A stretch of 64,000 bases of DNA from Torulaspora globosa (Eukaryota; Ascomycota; Saccharomycetes; Saccharomycetales; Saccharomycetaceae), in NCBI RefSeq assembly GCF_014133895.1, contig NC_050727.1, forward strand, positions 1,240,001 to 1,304,000. The letters are read 5' to 3'. Numbering within the stretch: position 1 is the first letter of the stretch; each line of letters opens with the position of its first letter. The notes beneath the pieces are model-generated. The model saw only the letters and a program-made list of their open reading frames with translations, was not told where the DNA came from and did not search any database. This document shows positions 37,216 to 44,367 of the stretch, one piece after another. The position numbers and the translations under genes are program-made.

Positions 37216-39036
37216 ATGGCAGAGTTGAGTAATCAAGTTGAGAAATTGGACATCAACGTTGGTTCGGATCGCAAGGGAGGATACGTTCCACCACATTTGA
37301 GGAACTCTGGAGGCAGAAGGCCAAGAAACGACGGGTTTGAAGCGGGTCGTGGTGACAGGAGCGGCAGTAGGGGGAGTTTTTTCGGATTTGACCGGCGCAG
37401 TGAGGGAAGAGGCGGATTTGGCAGAAACAGCGGCGGTAGTGGGTTCAGACCAGCAGGTACTGGTAAATGGGTTGATGGGAAACATGTTCCAGCGGCGAGA
37501 AACGAGAAGATGGAGGTGCAGTTGTTTGGGGTAGCGGAGGATCCAAACTTCCAGTCTTCTGGTATCAATTTTGACAACTATGACGACATTCCCGTGGAGG
37601 CGTCTGGTGAGGAGGTGCCGGAGCCTATTACGGAGTTTACGAGTCCTCCTTTGGACGAGCTGTTGTTGGAGAACATCAAGCTGGCTCGTTTCACGAAACC
37701 CACTCCGGTGCAGAAGTACTCGGTTCCGATCGTGGCCAAGGGCAGAGATCTGATGGCGTGTGCTCAGACCGGTTCTGGTAAGACGGGTGGGTTTCTGTTC
37801 CCTGTTCTTTCCGAGTCGTTCAGCACTGGTCCCTCTCCAGCTCCAGAGGGTGCGAAGGGCTCGTACATGAGGAAGGCTTTCCCAACGGCGGTTGTGTTGG
37901 CTCCTACCAGAGAGTTGGCTACGCAGATTTTCGATGAGGCTAAGAAGTTCACTTACAGATCGTGGGTTAGGCCAACTGTGGTGTACGGTGGTGCCGATGT
38001 CGGTTCTCAGATGAGAGAGCTGGACCGCGGTTGTGACCTGTTGGTCGCTACCCCAGGTCGTTTGAACGATCTTTTGGAGCGTGGTAAGATCTCGTTGGCT
38101 AAGGTCAAGTATTTGGTTCTCGACGAAGCAGACAGAATGTTGGATATGGGTTTCGAACCTCAAATTAGACACATTGTGGAAGGTTGCGATATGCCTGGCG
38201 TGGAAAACAGACAAACCCTGATGTTCTCGGCTACTTTCCCAGTGGACATCCAGCATTTGGCCCGTGACTTCTTGAGCGACTACATCTTTTTGTCAGTCGG
38301 TAGAGTCGGTTCCACTTCGGAAAACATTACGCAAAGAATCCTGTACGTGGAGGACGAGGACAAGAAATCTGCTTTGTTGGATTTGTTGTCGGCCTCCAAC
38401 GATGGTTTGACGTTGATTTTCGTGGAGACTAAGAGAATGGCCGATCAGTTGACCGATTTCCTGATCATGCAAAATTTTGCTGCCACTGCTATCCATGGTG
38501 ACCGTACCCAGGGCGAACGTGAACGTGCGTTGGCTGCGTTCAGATCTGGTAGGGCAAACCTATTGGTTGCCACTGCTGTCGCAGCAAGAGGTCTGGATAT
38601 TCCAAACGTCACGCATGTGATCAATTACGATTTGCCAAGCGACGTCGATGACTACGTTCACAGAATTGGTAGAACTGGTCGTGCCGGTAACACTGGTGTC
38701 TCCACCGCATTCTTTAACAGAGGTAACAAGAACATCGTCAAGGGTTTGGTCGAAATCTTGACTGAAGCCAACCAAGACGTCCCAGCGTTCTTGAACGATA
38801 TTTCTAGAGAATCTTCTGGTATCAGAGGTGGAAGAGGCGGTGGCTTCTTCAACAGCCGTGCTAGTGGTTCAAGAGATTACCGTAAGCAAGGTAACGGTAA
38901 CGGTTCGTGGGGTGCCTCCAGAAGTGGTGGTAGCAACTGGGGTTCATCCGGCTCAAGGGGCGGTGGTTCCTGGGGCAGCAGCAGATCCTCTGGATGGGGC
39001 GCATCTGAATCTTCCGGTAACTCATCCTGGTGGTGA
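37216..39036 (+). CDS. DED1: DEAD-box RNA helicase Ded1
   Basis: 606 residues (yeast Ded1 is 604). Essential helicase for translation initiation that unwinds 5' leaders with eIF4F and condenses under stress. N-terminal VPPHLR motif and Gly/Arg/Phe-rich region, then the eIF4E-binding-like lead-in [22 protein letters not shown]. Core motifs are the Q motif ([14 protein letters not shown]), AQTGSGKT (I), PTRELA (Ia), TPGR (Ib), DEAD (II), SAT (III), the IV/V region [11 protein letters not shown] and [10 protein letters not shown] (VI). The C-terminus is Ser/Gly/Trp-rich and ends SSWW as in Ded1. It is the single ancestor-type copy of DED1/DBP1. Confidence 0.97.
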
Positions 39037-39564
39037 ATAATTGATCTCGATTCAGATCCAACCTTTTTCCCACATTTCTCTAAATCATGCATTCTTTAAT
39101 GTCCTAGCATTTGGTTATGCATCGTTTAGCCGCTACTATTTTTTGTCCTTTTCGATTCGATAATTGAGGTATTATACAATTGTACAATAGAGTGTTTTCC
39201 TGCTCTTATATCCCTTTACAGGTGAGATTGCAGTTTGGAAAATGGGATTTCTTCTTAGAAATACCATGTAAAATATGAAGGTGTTGCTTAACTTTCTCTT
39301 CCCGATCAACTTTTCCTTAATCCGTTAAAAGATCACTGATAGAATGTCTCCTGCTTTGTACAGATGCGAGAAGGATAGATGTAAGTTTTTGGGCAAATAA
39401 GATTTATGTCCATTCATGGTACGGTTGTATAATAGTATTTTCTTGTCTTATTTACAGTTATATATCATAGAGATTTAAGTCGCAACAGAAACCCAGAATA
39501 AACGTTTCCAATTAGAAATTACGCAATTTTGTTCCCTATTTACATGTTATTATCCTACCCCATT
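39037..39564. other. AT-rich intergenic between convergent DED1 and RNR gene
   Basis: 528 bp, no gene supported. A GTAAGT at 39381-39386 and a TTTACAG ending at 39457 look like splice sites. There is no branch site between them and exon coding is negligible. Confidence 0.5.
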
Positions 39565-42165
39565 TTAACCGGAACAACTTTCGCAAAGCTCGCTATCCTT
39601 GATATTGCAACTTACAGGAGTCATGTCATGTATACCAAAAACGTCTTCATCTGTCGATGCTTTACGCAGTGATCCTTCCTCAAGCTCTTCGATTGAAACG
39701 CCATTCTTGTCGAAAAAGTCAATGTGCAATTCTTTACGACTGTTCTTCGGATATCTCCCCAATATTGGTTCGTTTTCCAACAGGTAATCATTTGCAAGCT
39801 TCACTGCCGTCATCAATGTGTTGTCGCTGTTAATTGTAAATTGAATCGCTGCAGATGCAGCTTGTGTTCTCAGGTAGTACATGCCCGTTTTAAGGCCCAG
39901 CCTCCAAGCGTAAAAATGCATTCCCGTCAATTTGCCCATCGTGGGTGTCTGCAGATAAAGATTCAAACTCTGTGATTGATCTATGAACGGAGACCTTTCT
40001 CGAGCCATATCTATCAGTCTTCTTTGCGGCACTTCCCATACTGTTTTATAAAGTTTCTTGATCTCATCTGGCAATCCATCAATGTTCTGCACCGAGCCAT
40101 TATCCATGATAATCCTGTTCTTAAGCTTTTCATCCCATATCCCCAGCCGGCAGAAATGCTCCACCATATATCTATTCACATTAATGTATTCCCCGCTCAA
40201 CACTCTTCTGGTGTATATATTCGAAGTCAATGGCTCAAATGATTCTGTGTACCCTAAAATTTGAGAGGTTGAGGCGGTAGGCATAGGCGCAACCAATAGA
40301 GAGTTCCTAAGCCCTGTTTTTGTCGTAATTCTATCCTTCAACTGGTCCCAATCGTTGTATAAATACTCTTCGTCACCTACCGCTGATTTCCAGAAATCAA
40401 ACTGAAGGAGGCCCTGACTTGCTGGAGATCCTGGGAAACTCTTATAATGACCAAACTTCTCGGCAAGTTCAACAGAAGCCTCAATGGCGGCATGGTATAT
40501 GGTTTCGAATATTTGCTTGTTAAGTATGCTTGCCTCTTCAGTTTCGAAGGGAATCTTTAACAAAAAAAATACGTCTGCTAGGCCTTGTACACCAATAGCC
40601 TGTGGCCTATTCTTTTCATTGCTATATCGCGCCTCCTCCACTGGATAGTCACAAACGTCAATCAAACGATCCAGGTTTCTCGTTATCACTTTGACAACGG
40701 AATGTAAACCTTTAAAATCAAACAAGCTTCCTTTGCCTTCAATCTGCTGAACAAAAGCAGGCAGAGCGACAGAGGCTAGGTTACAAACAGCAGTTTCCTT
40801 TGCTGAAGTATATTCGACAATCTCACAGCAGAGGTTCGATGACTTGATGGTTCCCAGGTTTTTCTGGTTAGACTTCTTGTTGCACGAATCTTTATAAAGC
40901 ATAAAAGGTCCTCCCGTTTCAGTCTGGCTTTGCAATATCTCGGACCATAGCTTTTGAGCTTCAACCTGCTGCATTGGAGAAGTAGTCTTCTCATAGTGCT
41001 CGTACAATCTGTCAAATTCTTCGCCATAGACGTCAGTCAACCCTGGAGCCTCATCAGGGCTGAATAATGACCATTTCCCGTTTGTTTCGACCCTTCTCAT
41101 GAAAAGGTCTGGTATCCAAAGAGCAAAAAACAGGTCTCTCGCTCTCAACTCTTCTTTACCGTGGTTCTTTCGTAGTTGTAGGAACTCAAAAATATCAGCA
41201 TGCCAAGGTTCAAGGTATATGCAATAAGCACCAGGCCTCTTGTTACCGCCCTGATCTACATACCTTGCAGTGTTATTAAACACACGAAGCATTGGAACCA
41301 AGCCGCTTGATATTCCGTTGCTGCCTGAGATGAGTGCTCCACATGATCGTATGTTCGAGACGTGAAGTCCTATCCCTCCTGAAGCCTTCGAAATGAGAGC
41401 CGTCTTGTGGAGCGTTTTGAATATTCCATCGATAGAGTCCTCCATCATTCCGAGAAGAAAGCATGAGGAAAGGTACTGGTTCACTGTACCAGCATTGAAC
41501 AGTGTCGGTGAGGCATGGATGAAATAATGTTTCGACATTAGTTCGTATGTCTCCAGGACGGAGTCAATATCACCGTATGGCCCATGGATAGCCAAAGCGA
41601 CCCTCATGAACAGAAATTGCGGTGTTTCATGCACCTCTACAGCGTTCCTTTTCAGGAGATACGATTGACAAAGTGTCTTCCAGCCAAAGTAAGTAAAATG
41701 GAAGTCTCTTTCCTGCACAATAGCGCTATTGAGCCGTTCCTCGTGCAGGACCGCTAGATCATGAAACTCCTGCGATATTATGCCTTTGCGGGGGCTCCTA
41801 TTAGGCTTCCGCCTTTTCTGATCTTGAGAATCATTCAGTTGTTCAACCCAATCGACACGGCTTGTTGTCCTTAATAGACCCAAATTATGTGTAAAAGTTA
41901 TTCCCTTCATCTTCTGGTGAAGTTCATCAATCTCCAACCGAGCTGCCAACACTGAGTAATCTGGATGTGTGCTTGTGAGCGAAGCTAGAGTCTGAGCGAT
42001 GTATTCAACTACCTGTCGCCGGGTTGCAGTCTCTGGAATCGCTTTAAATGCTTTTTCTAGCACTTCAGATACCTTGACATATCGCTTGTTAAGATCAACT
42101 GACAACTTATGCAGTTTCGCAGTGAGCTCTTCCAGGCCAAAACGAGTTCCTTCCTCTACAGCCAT
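39565..42165 (-). CDS. divergent ribonucleotide reductase large subunit (RNR1/RNR3 paralogue)
   Basis: 866 residues. Class Ia reductase large chain that reduces ribonucleoside diphosphates. Catalytic residues are all there by eye: Cys235 (SSCFLL), Asn444, Cys446 and Glu448 (NLCCEIVEY), Cys461 (AVCNLAS), the tyrosine pair in GMYYLRT, and the C-terminal CxxC at 861/864. The specificity site (EDSIDGIF, loop [10 protein letters not shown]) is conserved. The N-terminal ATP-cone is not: the universal MYVxKRDGR start is replaced by [10 protein letters not shown]. The Asp corresponding to Asp57 of yeast/human R1, in VTTVELD, aligns with Val53 (ATRRQVV). A basic insert ([11 protein letters not shown]) is at 117-127. 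RNR1 and RNR3 do not lie here in S. cerevisiae (YER070W, YIL066C). Confidence 0.93.
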
Positions 42166-42879
42166 CCCGCTCGATTAAGGATATCCTCCTATCTGTTAAC
42201 TTAGCAGCAATGAGCGAACAGGACAAGATAACTGAACCCAAGATTGTTCCATTACCTCTAGCACAGAGTTAGTGTTAAAGAAGCTTGTTCAAGGATGTCT
42301 TTAGTATTGAAAAACGGCTGTTAGTAAAAGAAAGAGAAACGCACGTGAAAATGGGATCCAGGTCGCAATCCAACGATGAGACTGTGGTATCGGGCTGTTA
42401 CGAATGCCAGATCGTCCAGACAGAAGCTGCTATATATCTACTTGTAGTGTCGGACTTTGTCTGGTCCGATGCGTCAGTAATTCTTGACACCTTCGGTGTC
42501 GAAAAATTTTATTCCACCAAATATTGGGAAGAAGCAACTTTGAGCCTTGGCTTCGAGGTGCTCCTGATTGGGTATTAGTTGCTGCTTGTCCGTTAACTGC
42601 TGCCATTTCTGGGTGAGGTTTTGGCAGCGAGGACACAGAGCTTTGGTGAGCTGTTGTAGCAACAATTATCCCTCGAATGCAGCCGAGCTTCTATACTAAG
42701 TCCATTTTAGCCAACGGATAAGCTAACGTTTGTCGCTGACAGGCTCCTCACCAGCCATGTTTATGGCCAACTTCGAGCGCAGGACAGATACACGGACACT
42801 GGTTTAGATGGCTTGGGCCCTCTTTACTTGAGCGAACCTCTTCAAATCTGGTGGGGTTGTCCTGGCTGCAAGCTGCAAA
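42166..42879. other. 714-bp upstream region of the RNR paralogue
   Basis: Between the VPS30 stop and the RNR start, both minus strand. CACGTG occurs at 42342-42347. A minus-strand TACTAAC (GTTAGTA at 42320-42326) is present but has no fitting donor/exon that I can read. GTTGTAGCAAC at about 42651-42661 is only a distant relative of the Rfx1/Crt1 X-box. Frames of 58-97 codons here lack family resemblance. Confidence 0.4.
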
Positions 42880-44367
42880 TCACGAAGACGGCGACTGGGC
42901 AAGCCGACTAGAGGAAAAGGCTAGAAGCCATTTAGCGTTAGTCAGCAGAAACTTCATTGCTGTAGTCCATTCCAAAGTCGGCCTACCGCCGAACAACTTC
43001 ACAGAAATTCCGTTTATCTTGTCCTTATGCATCACATAAGGCAGCTCCACATCATAAATGACATCATTCTCGTTTTCAGCATAACCTGCATCACTAGTTT
43101 GCACGTCGCCTGCACCGGACGGAGGCCGAGACAATCCTGCAGCCATCAGTTGGACAATATCCAACAGACACTCAAGAGCTTTATCAAAACCTGTCTCCTT
43201 GCGAAACAGTTTTCCCAGCTTGAAGCCATCCGCGAAGTAGGCCTCGTAAGTTACCCACTCCTGTTCTTCTTGCTGAAATTTACAGACTTTTGAGAAAGAG
43301 CCCATGGGTTGGAGCTTGTATCCTTTAGTTTTGATGTTTAGTCTTGTAATGATCGTGGCAAGCAAAAGAACTATCTGGCCTAAAGCTGCATTAATTTCTT
43401 GCCATGGTACCCTTACCTCGTCGAATCCTCCTAGCCTGAGTCCATTGATTACCCCGAATGGTCCTTCATGCGATATTTTGAACGTTTCATTGTAGACATT
43501 GAATTTCCTCAGCCTATCTAAGCTGTTGAGGGAGAACTCATACTGTTTTTTCAAAGACTGGACTTCAGTTGAGAAATTAATCAGCTCTAGTTCATGCATA
43601 TTTTTCCGTTTCAGGTCTTCCAGCTCCGTGATTCTCTTAGCCTCAACCTGCTTCTCGAGACATGCAATCTTCTGCTCCAACTCTTCGTCTTGTTTTTCCA
43701 GCCCGACAAGCTCATTAAGAAGGGATTCGCTTTCCGATTTCAGCTTTGCTGACTCTTCATGAATTGCTCCAGTTGACTCAGGTTGGGCCACTTTCTTCTG
43801 CTTTTCTATTCTGGAAACGAATTGAGTGTAAAGGTCTCTTTCCCGTATTGCATCATCATATTCACTCTGAAGCCTCTGTATCAGAATGTTGCAGCAATCT
43901 TGGCACACAGGATAGTCGATATTACTGTTCGAAGATAGAATGTTGAACACATTAGCTAGTGCGCTGATCTGCGTCGAAAGCGTTCTCGTATTGCCATGTG
44001 AAAGGCCATAATGGAAGTCTTCATCCAAATGCTCATCTCCTGAATCATCCTCTTTCCTGGCAATCAGAGTCTGTGCAGAAGTTTCAATTGAACTGTCATT
44101 GGATGGACTGCTCGCGCTTGGTTCAGTCTGCAGAAACACATAAGAGTCTAGTTCTGACTTCGGGAGATTCAAATCTTTGGGGTGAATAGCTTTACTTAAA
44201 GCGTGTAGTCTATCGTCAGGTATCTTGTATTTGGTTGGAGTGTAGTCGTTCGATGAGTTCGCCAACAAATCCCTCTGTGCCAGACTTAGATCCAAAAGCG
44301 AACTATCAATCTTTAACGGAAGCCTGCAGTTCTGACATTTAAGCGGCAATTCCTCAATATTGCTCAT
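42880..44367 (-). CDS. VPS30: Vps30/Atg6 (Beclin 1 orthologue)
   Basis: 495 residues (yeast Vps30 is 557). Subunit of PI3-kinase complexes I (autophagy) and II (vacuolar sorting) with Vps34, Vps15 and Atg14 or Vps38. N-terminal CQNCRLPL (C11, C14). A mostly disordered stretch follows to about 150, with a second CxxC in YPVCQDCCNILIQRL. A coiled coil covers about 165-280, and the conserved BARA domain about 300-480. The BARA domain includes FNVYNETFKISHEGPFGVINGLRLG, VPWQEINAALGQIVLLLATI and PMGSFSKV. The C-terminus has TTAMKFLLTNAKWLLAFSS. Confidence 0.95.
   Translation of the reverse strand: MSNIEELPLKCQNCRLPLKIDSSLLDLSLAQRDLLANSSNDYTPTKYKIPDDRLHALSKAIHPKDLNLPKSELDSYVFLQTEPSASSPSNDSSIETSAQTLIARKEDDSGDEHLDEDFHYGLSHGNTRTLSTQISALANVFNILSSNSNIDYPVCQDCCNILIQRLQSEYDDAIRERDLYTQFVSRIEKQKKVAQPESTGAIHEESAKLKSESESLLNELVGLEKQDEELEQKIACLEKQVEAKRITELEDLKRKNMHELELINFSTEVQSLKKQYEFSLNSLDRLRKFNVYNETFKISHEGPFGVINGLRLGGFDEVRVPWQEINAALGQIVLLLATIITRLNIKTKGYKLQPMGSFSKVCKFQQEEQEWVTYEAYFADGFKLGKLFRKETGFDKALECLLDIVQLMAAGLSRPPSGAGDVQTSDAGYAENENDVIYDVELPYVMHKDKINGISVKLFGGRPTLEWTTAMKFLLTNAKWLLAFSSSRLAQSPSS

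Follow-up and report, generated by a model that had tools for sequence, protein, structure and literature searches.

In eukaryotic ribonucleotide reductases (RNRs) Asp57 of the large subunit (R1) is placed to contact dATP, and its exchange for Asn abolishes dATP inhibition (PMC5819950). The yeast rnr1-D57N and mammalian dGuo-200-1 mutants are described as having lost dATP inhibition and as containing increased dNTP pools (PMC3267527, PMC5819950). The dATP ring depends on Asp16, and its interface residues in human R1 include Thr40 (PMC5819950). VxKRDG is the signature of the ATP-cone, the domain in which Ile18 has been tied to the discrimination between ATP and dATP; the cones of the Trypanosoma brucei and phage T4 enzymes still bind dATP, and class Ib R1s are described as having no cone (PMC3267527). 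Among the yeasts, the second large subunit of Saccharomyces cerevisiae, Rnr3, stems from the genome duplication as a copy of Rnr1 (PMC6545439), and Candida glabrata is described as having no direct RNR3 orthologue (PMC7773997). For Kluyveromyces lactis two R1 ORFs, including KLLA0F01188g, and a single R2 are given, the second R1 being assigned by similarity; in the open-access literature searched, this ORF was the only probable trace found in print of the R1 lineage treated here (PMC8465852).

The window analysed is a stretch of 64,000 nucleotides of the Torulaspora globosa genome. It contains an uninterrupted R1 ORF on the minus strand that starts with an ATG at 42165 and encodes 866 residues, which confirms the observation made on positions 39565-42165 in the original prediction. 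We use the label R1b for the ancient R1 clade to which this gene belongs and R1a for the canonical R1. The gene and its surroundings are:

39565..42165, minus strand: intronless gene of R1b, the second large subunit of ribonucleotide reductase, 866 aa (ORF, Pfam, alignments)
37216..39036, plus strand: DED1-like DEAD-box helicase, neighbour (Pfam DEAD, Helicase_C)
42880..44367, minus strand: VPS30/ATG6, neighbour (Pfam APG6)
42166..42879, minus strand: stretch between the start of R1b and VPS30, in which neither MCB (ACGCGT) nor X-box was found (motif scan)

R1b lies tail-to-tail with the helicase gene, which we take to be DED1, and downstream of VPS30 on the shared strand. The neighbours are thus those named in the original prediction; its statement that the gene was inserted between them is not supported: the lineage is old, and nothing here points to insertion. 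The T. globosa genome (9.28 Mb, 8 contigs) encodes two R1s at E<=0.001. The second, sought as the canonical R1 elsewhere in the genome, was found at C3:927244-929478; it is identical to T. globosa HG536_0C05050 and adjoins a FIS1-like ORF, presumably FIS1 itself. In S. cerevisiae it is RNR3 that adjoins FIS1. The genome further contains one R2 match, one RFX/Crt1-type regulator and a Dif1-type RNR_inhib match (C3:1067478-1067612, 28 bits, cut-off 23) that is consistent with nuclear import of R2.

Three protein searches of a database clustered at 90% yielded at least 293 R1s of 690-950 residues; the counts given below refer to the matches listed. P0001 was dropped as a duplicate of P0002. P0122 (1480 residues), which falls outside the length limits, served as the outgroup of the 33-row and 57-row trees after trimming to its first 760 residues; this Cordylochernes (arthropod) RRM1 entry consists of two R1 copies head to tail (1-753 and 768-1466) and represents either a genuine fusion or an annotation error. 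In a FastTree calculation based on the core only, with cone and tail excluded, 120 R1bs including the window gene formed one clade with a support of 1.0. The remaining 173 R1s listed are canonical, among them RNR1 and RNR3 of S. cerevisiae. IQ-TREE with the C20 model and 33 rows recovered R1b as monophyletic (100/99), and the 57-row tree concurs (SH-aLRT 100). RNR1 and RNR3 are sisters inside the canonical clade and R1b stands apart from them, so that by these trees the R1b clade is older than the RNR1/RNR3 split, the branching order that the original prediction had raised. In the 33-row and 57-row trees R1a, R1b, Lipomyces, Limtongia and two further rows all emerge from one basal polytomy. 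An independent duplication within the Saccharomycetaceae was rejected: the tree in which their R1as and R1bs form one clade, a constraint group chosen after the trees had been seen, has a p-AU of 1.6e-5.

Among the matches listed, R1b occurs in the Saccharomycetaceae, Phaffomycetales, Serinales and Pichiales, by the order names that we assume for these rows, and in the genera Torulaspora, Zygosaccharomyces, Zygotorulaspora, Lachancea, Kluyveromyces, Eremothecium, Wickerhamomyces, Cyberlindnera, Debaryomyces, Candida, Scheffersomyces, Ogataea, Pichia, Brettanomyces, Kuraishia, Pachysolen and Babjeviella. Fifteen listed rows, including P0194, are from yeasts which we take to be descended from the genome duplication; all 15 are canonical and none is an R1b. 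From its rank among the matches listed we infer that R1b is absent from post-duplication yeasts. Judging from its congeners, KLLA0F01188g of K. lactis is probably an R1b orthologue; neither this name nor that of C. albicans 'RNR3' is among the matches listed. The public names of R1bs are inconsistent (RNR1, large chain 1 or large chain 2 among P0048, P0021 and P0047), and the literature on such genes may therefore mix two lineages.

The window protein has the R1 fold, and Pfam recognizes its R1 barrel (692.4 bits) and all-alpha domain (86.9 bits). The Cys triad, the Asn/Glu residues, the Tyr-Tyr pair and the C-terminal CxxC of class I R1s are all present, as are the specificity site and loop 2:

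41461..41463, minus strand: Cys235 (S. cerevisiae C218), catalytic pair (alignment)
41437..41439, minus strand: Asp243 (S. cerevisiae D226), specificity site (alignment)
41233..41253, minus strand: specificity loop 2, residues 305-311, QGGNKRP (alignment)
40822..40836, minus strand: Asn444, Cys446 and Glu448, active site (alignment)
40783..40785, minus strand: Cys461 (S. cerevisiae C443), catalytic pair (alignment)
39874..39879, minus strand: Tyr763-Tyr764, radical-transfer pair (alignment)
39616..39621, minus strand: Thr849-Pro850 in the C-tail, an [S/T]-P that precedes a tail cysteine by two residues (sequence pattern)
39574..39585, minus strand: C-terminal CxxC (Cys861, Cys864) (alignment)

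Residues C218, N426, C428, E430, C443, Y741, Y742, C883 and C886 of the S. cerevisiae protein correspond to C235, N444, C446, E448, C461, Y763, Y764, C861 and C864 of the window protein. The original prediction had described the catalytic and specificity sites as intact, and all of the residues checked were indeed present. In the clade as a whole, C218, D226, R256, Q288, R293, N426, C428, E430, C443, Y741 and Y742 are unchanged in 120/120 listed R1bs, K243 is kept in 118 and replaced by Arg in the other two, and 118 of the 120 end in CxxC. The core of the window protein is identical to that of T. globosa's own R1a at 416 of 643 positions. Judged from these sequences, R1b is very probably an active enzyme, and the invariance of the checked catalytic residues argues against a purely regulatory chain; a regulatory role such as the original prediction raised is otherwise a possible alternative. 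Some core positions have nevertheless been exchanged throughout the clade. Five of the 322 positions that are at least 99% fixed in canonical R1s are kept by at most one listed R1b (D57, R166, H169, Q214 and K236). The four core residues among them, R166, H169, Q214 and K236, are kept in 0/120 and are mostly replaced by T, F/Y, Y/F and H, respectively; since these switches are clade-wide, catalysis by R1b may be altered. The [S/T]-P two residues before the tail cysteine was seen in the R1b tails of 27/29 Saccharomycetaceae, 37/46 Serinales, 10/14 Phaffomycetales, 0/27 Pichiales and 1/4 of the rest, and in 0/173 canonical R1s (matches listed). It may be a phosphorylation site close to the redox tail.

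The N-terminal domain differs from the core:

41908..42141, minus strand: degenerate ATP-cone, residues 9-86; predicted as four helices lacking the N-terminal beta cap, with the nucleotide-site positions replaced
42007..42009, minus strand: codon of Val53, at the position of canonical Asp57, the dATP contact (alignment; PMC5819950)

The Pfam ATP-cone scored 13.8 bits in the window R1b and 55.0 bits in T. globosa's canonical R1, with a cut-off of 25.8. A phmmer alignment to yeast Rnr1 bore out the claim that Val53 stands opposite Asp57. Asp57 is present in 173/173 canonical R1s and in 0/120 R1bs (matches listed). In 110 of the 118 listed R1bs that are ungapped at this position the residue is V, I, L, M, F or Y, which looks like repacking, not random decay. 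The KRDGR strand, said to be gone, is gone: a KRDG-like word occurs within the first 60 residues of 0/29 listed Saccharomycetaceae R1bs, whereas the same pattern recovers 158 of the 173 listed canonical R1s; 4/120 listed R1bs overall have a KRDG-like cap. R1b thus lacks the combination of VxKRDG cap and Asp57 that characterizes the overall-activity site. A missed upstream exon supplying the strand is not supported: an in-frame stop lies at -12 before the ATG. In the 714 bp between R1b and VPS30 the three forward frames contained no KRDG-like word and none of the 5' splice-site words searched for was found; one TACTAAC word occurs at -161. The orthologues lend such an exon no support either.

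Further positions of the nucleotide site and of the ring have been lost. Lys88 is kept in 64/120 and Asp16 in 24/120 listed R1bs. In a set of 86 R1bs, K5, R6, F15, D16, I18, T40, I44, Y48 and T53 survive in 0-24%, with 19% for the ring position Asp16 and 3% for the ring position Thr40, and many further cone positions are also changed. Ten others (L25, L29, E62, A65, H71, P72, D73, L77, A78 and R80) are kept in 88-100%. These ten positions, the depth of the clade and the NLS-like cluster described below are features that the original prediction did not contain. AlphaFold (AF2) models the R1b cone, from an alignment of 54 R1b and 12 canonical rows, as helices 11-21, 32-41, 49-65 and 69-85 without a cap; in the canonical control (51 canonical and 8 R1b rows; pLDDT 75.9, pTM 0.80) cap strands 2-4 and 10-12 are present. 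The R1b entries P0261 and P0252 (Brettanomyces naardenensis and Pichia membranifaciens) begin only shortly ahead of the last cone helix: most of their cone may be gone, or their start may be misannotated.

The rates of evolution of the two domains were compared in eight matched species (28 comparisons), the cone being taken as S. cerevisiae residues 10-92. For the cone, mean Kimura distances of 1.15 among the R1bs and 0.063 among the R1as were obtained, an 18-fold ratio; for the core they were 0.316 and 0.144, a 2.2-fold ratio. The canonical cone therefore evolves more slowly than the core, and the R1b cone far faster. The faster evolution throughout, together with the missing R1b among the 15 listed post-duplication rows, might be taken as the signs of a duplicate in decay that will eventually be lost. 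This is highly improbable, as it is already contradicted by the conservation observed: several yeast orders have retained R1b, the checked catalytic residues do not vary, and the CxxC end hardly does.

R1b differs from the canonical class Ia R1s, such as S. cerevisiae Rnr1 and human RRM1, in the missing Asp57 and KRDGR cap, in the replacement of Asp16 and Thr40, and in a basic cluster in the linker or tail. Like the laboratory D57N alleles of yeast and mammals it has an altered residue 57 in the activity site; those alleles carry one mutant residue, whereas in R1b the loss extends to all 120 listed members and most of the nucleotide site is changed. Insensitivity of R1b to dATP is very likely on this evidence. 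The original prediction had raised it as a possibility; it is the best inference and a stronger one than could then be known, because all of the listed R1bs lack Asp57. R1b would in this respect resemble the R1s of T. brucei, phage T4 and class Ib, which are not inhibited by dATP. It appears to differ from them in that, according to the model, a cone-shaped bundle is kept and its nucleotide site is gone, which would be a third arrangement of a dATP-escaping R1 beside the kept cone and the absent cone.

Hints on expression come from the promoters of one genome, that of T. globosa, and were read with MCB and X-box motifs that we assume to apply. R1a is preceded by four ACGCGT sites within 539 bp and R2 by four within 1254 bp, of which three cluster in about 60 bp; the count for the 714 bp before R1b is 0. 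No X-box was found in these 714 bp, the best 14-mer having four mismatches, nor was a clear one found in the R1a upstream region. A crude preferred-codon index (Fop), calculated with a list of codons that we presume to be the preferred ones, is 0.426 for R1b, 0.572 for R1a, 0.582 for R2 and 0.606 for DED1; thirteen other genes of the window range from 0.41 to 0.52. With no MCB and a low codon index, R1b would seem to be expressed at a modest rate and not to belong to the S-phase programme. A role of R1b off the cell cycle is conceivable, with the balance somewhat against it. Two adjacent hairpins are predicted upstream of R1b (42450-42540, minus strand; z -2.45, 3/200 shuffles fold as well), and no Rfam match at gathering scores was obtained within 39030-43000.

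Regulation of R1b by DNA damage through an X-box was rejected, no site having been found in the upstream region, although an RFX protein is encoded. The suggestion that the gene is useful for damage thus found no backing in the 714-bp region, where neither X-box nor MCB was detected. It is also improbable that R1b serves as a spare R1 induced by damage or stress, a functional forerunner of S. cerevisiae RNR3 in which the loss of the cone is a side effect. Such a spare would suit the sole second R1 found in the T. globosa genome, the RFX/Crt1-type protein, and the lack of R1b among the 15 listed post-duplication rows beside the presence of RNR3 in S. cerevisiae. Rnr3 resembles R1b in being the second large subunit of a yeast, but it belongs to the canonical clade and, like the other canonical R1s, keeps Asp57 (173/173 listed); R1b is far older, and the uniform loss of Asp57 in the 120 listed R1bs is not what a side effect of changed expression would produce. 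For C. albicans 'RNR3', which may be of the R1a or the R1b lineage, a slight decrease after MMS is reported (PMC11204775).

The location of R1b may also differ from that of R1a. S. cerevisiae R1 is described as constitutively cytoplasmic, and R2, imported by Dif1, accumulates in the nucleus in G1 (PMC11149843). A nuclear R1b would therefore meet R2 where R1a does not. The window protein contains a candidate import signal:

41785..41817, minus strand: basic cluster, 11 residues, residues 117-127, in the cone-core linker, NLS-like, low model confidence (sequence, AF2)

The cluster is monopartite and, in the model of the window protein, lies in a segment predicted to be unstructured. The word scored was K[KR]x[KR], which we take to be a classical NLS pattern, and its frequency was compared with 200 shuffles. 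Among the matches listed it occurs in the linker or tail of 101/120 R1bs and 5/173 canonical R1s, and after thinning at 85% core identity in 73/87 and 1/19. It is found in the linker of 28/29 Saccharomycetaceae R1bs (shuffle mean 6.1, maximum 12) and of 0/173 canonical R1s. In the other orders it lies in the C-tail: Serinales 42/46 (mean 10.8, maximum 18), Phaffomycetales 10/14 (1.8, 6), Pichiales 18/27 (3.9, 9) and the remaining R1bs 3/4 (0.5, 3), against 0/29 in Saccharomycetaceae R1bs and 5/173 in canonical R1s, the latter below the shuffle mean of 12.5 (all matches listed). The counts of the four main R1b groups each exceed all 200 shuffles. A bipartite pattern occurs in 57/91 listed R1b tails from outside the Saccharomycetaceae (mean 12.5, maximum 21) and in 3/173 canonical tails; in the Saccharomycetaceae R1b linker it is not enriched (5/29 listed, mean 5.8). 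The cluster is missing in 19/120 listed R1bs. Outside linker and tail the word is likewise commoner in R1b (Saccharomycetaceae 18/29, other R1bs 36/57, canonical 12/134; matches listed), and part of the NLS-like signal may for this reason be general basicity. A nuclear location of R1b is about an even chance.

In another reading R1b is not so much an independent enzyme as a partner in mixed R1a/R1b dimers formed through the conserved core, its dead cone blocking closure of the dATP ring and relieving R1a of feedback. The conserved core shared with R1a, the loss of the ring positions Asp16 and Thr40 in most R1bs, and a codon adaptation low enough to suit a minor subunit are all in keeping with it, and cross-talk between Rnr1 and Rnr3 exists in S. 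cerevisiae. Mixed dimers are still an unlikely main mode of action: a purely regulatory chain would not need the catalytic and radical-path residues that all 120 listed R1bs retain, and R1b, if nuclear, would not meet the cytoplasmic R1.

The explanation that we favour, and consider reasonably probable from the sequences compared, is that R1b is an ancient, catalytically competent class I R1 paralogue without overall-activity feedback; the original interpretation is in this sense partly supported. R1b would pair with the single R2. Neither activation by ATP nor inhibition by dATP would operate any more, and R1b would be unable to close the dATP-inhibited hexamer. It would act at a low level, not as part of the MBF S-phase programme, and its site of action would probably be the nucleus, in which yeast R2 is retained during G1. 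The result would be a supply of dNTPs that dATP does not shut off.

A tentative extension, which we hold to be rather less than evenly probable, is that budding yeasts have had two systems since before the split of Saccharomycetales, Pichiales and Serinales: a cytoplasmic, S-phase, dATP-controlled R1a and a nuclear, feedback-blind R1b uncoupled from the cell cycle. The segment that carries the nuclear signal would then vary from order to order, as though selection had acted on entry into the nucleus as such. If this is true, Saccharomyces and its post-duplication relatives, in which RNR regulation has been worked out, are without the second system. Labels such as 'RNR1' or 'large chain 1/2' in non-Saccharomyces genomes should be read with caution, as they may denote either of two ancient lineages. 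The dATP feedback that acts via Asp57 serves as a central brake on dNTP pools; D57N alleles raise the pools, and allosteric mutants of RNR are described as often raising mutation rates (PMC3267527). Evolution has fixed the loss at residue 57 in a long-lived second enzyme and kept the brake in the first. R1b is thus natural material for studying what the brake is for and how cells cope with an RNR that lacks it, and it poses the question of whether the place and time of expression replace allostery.
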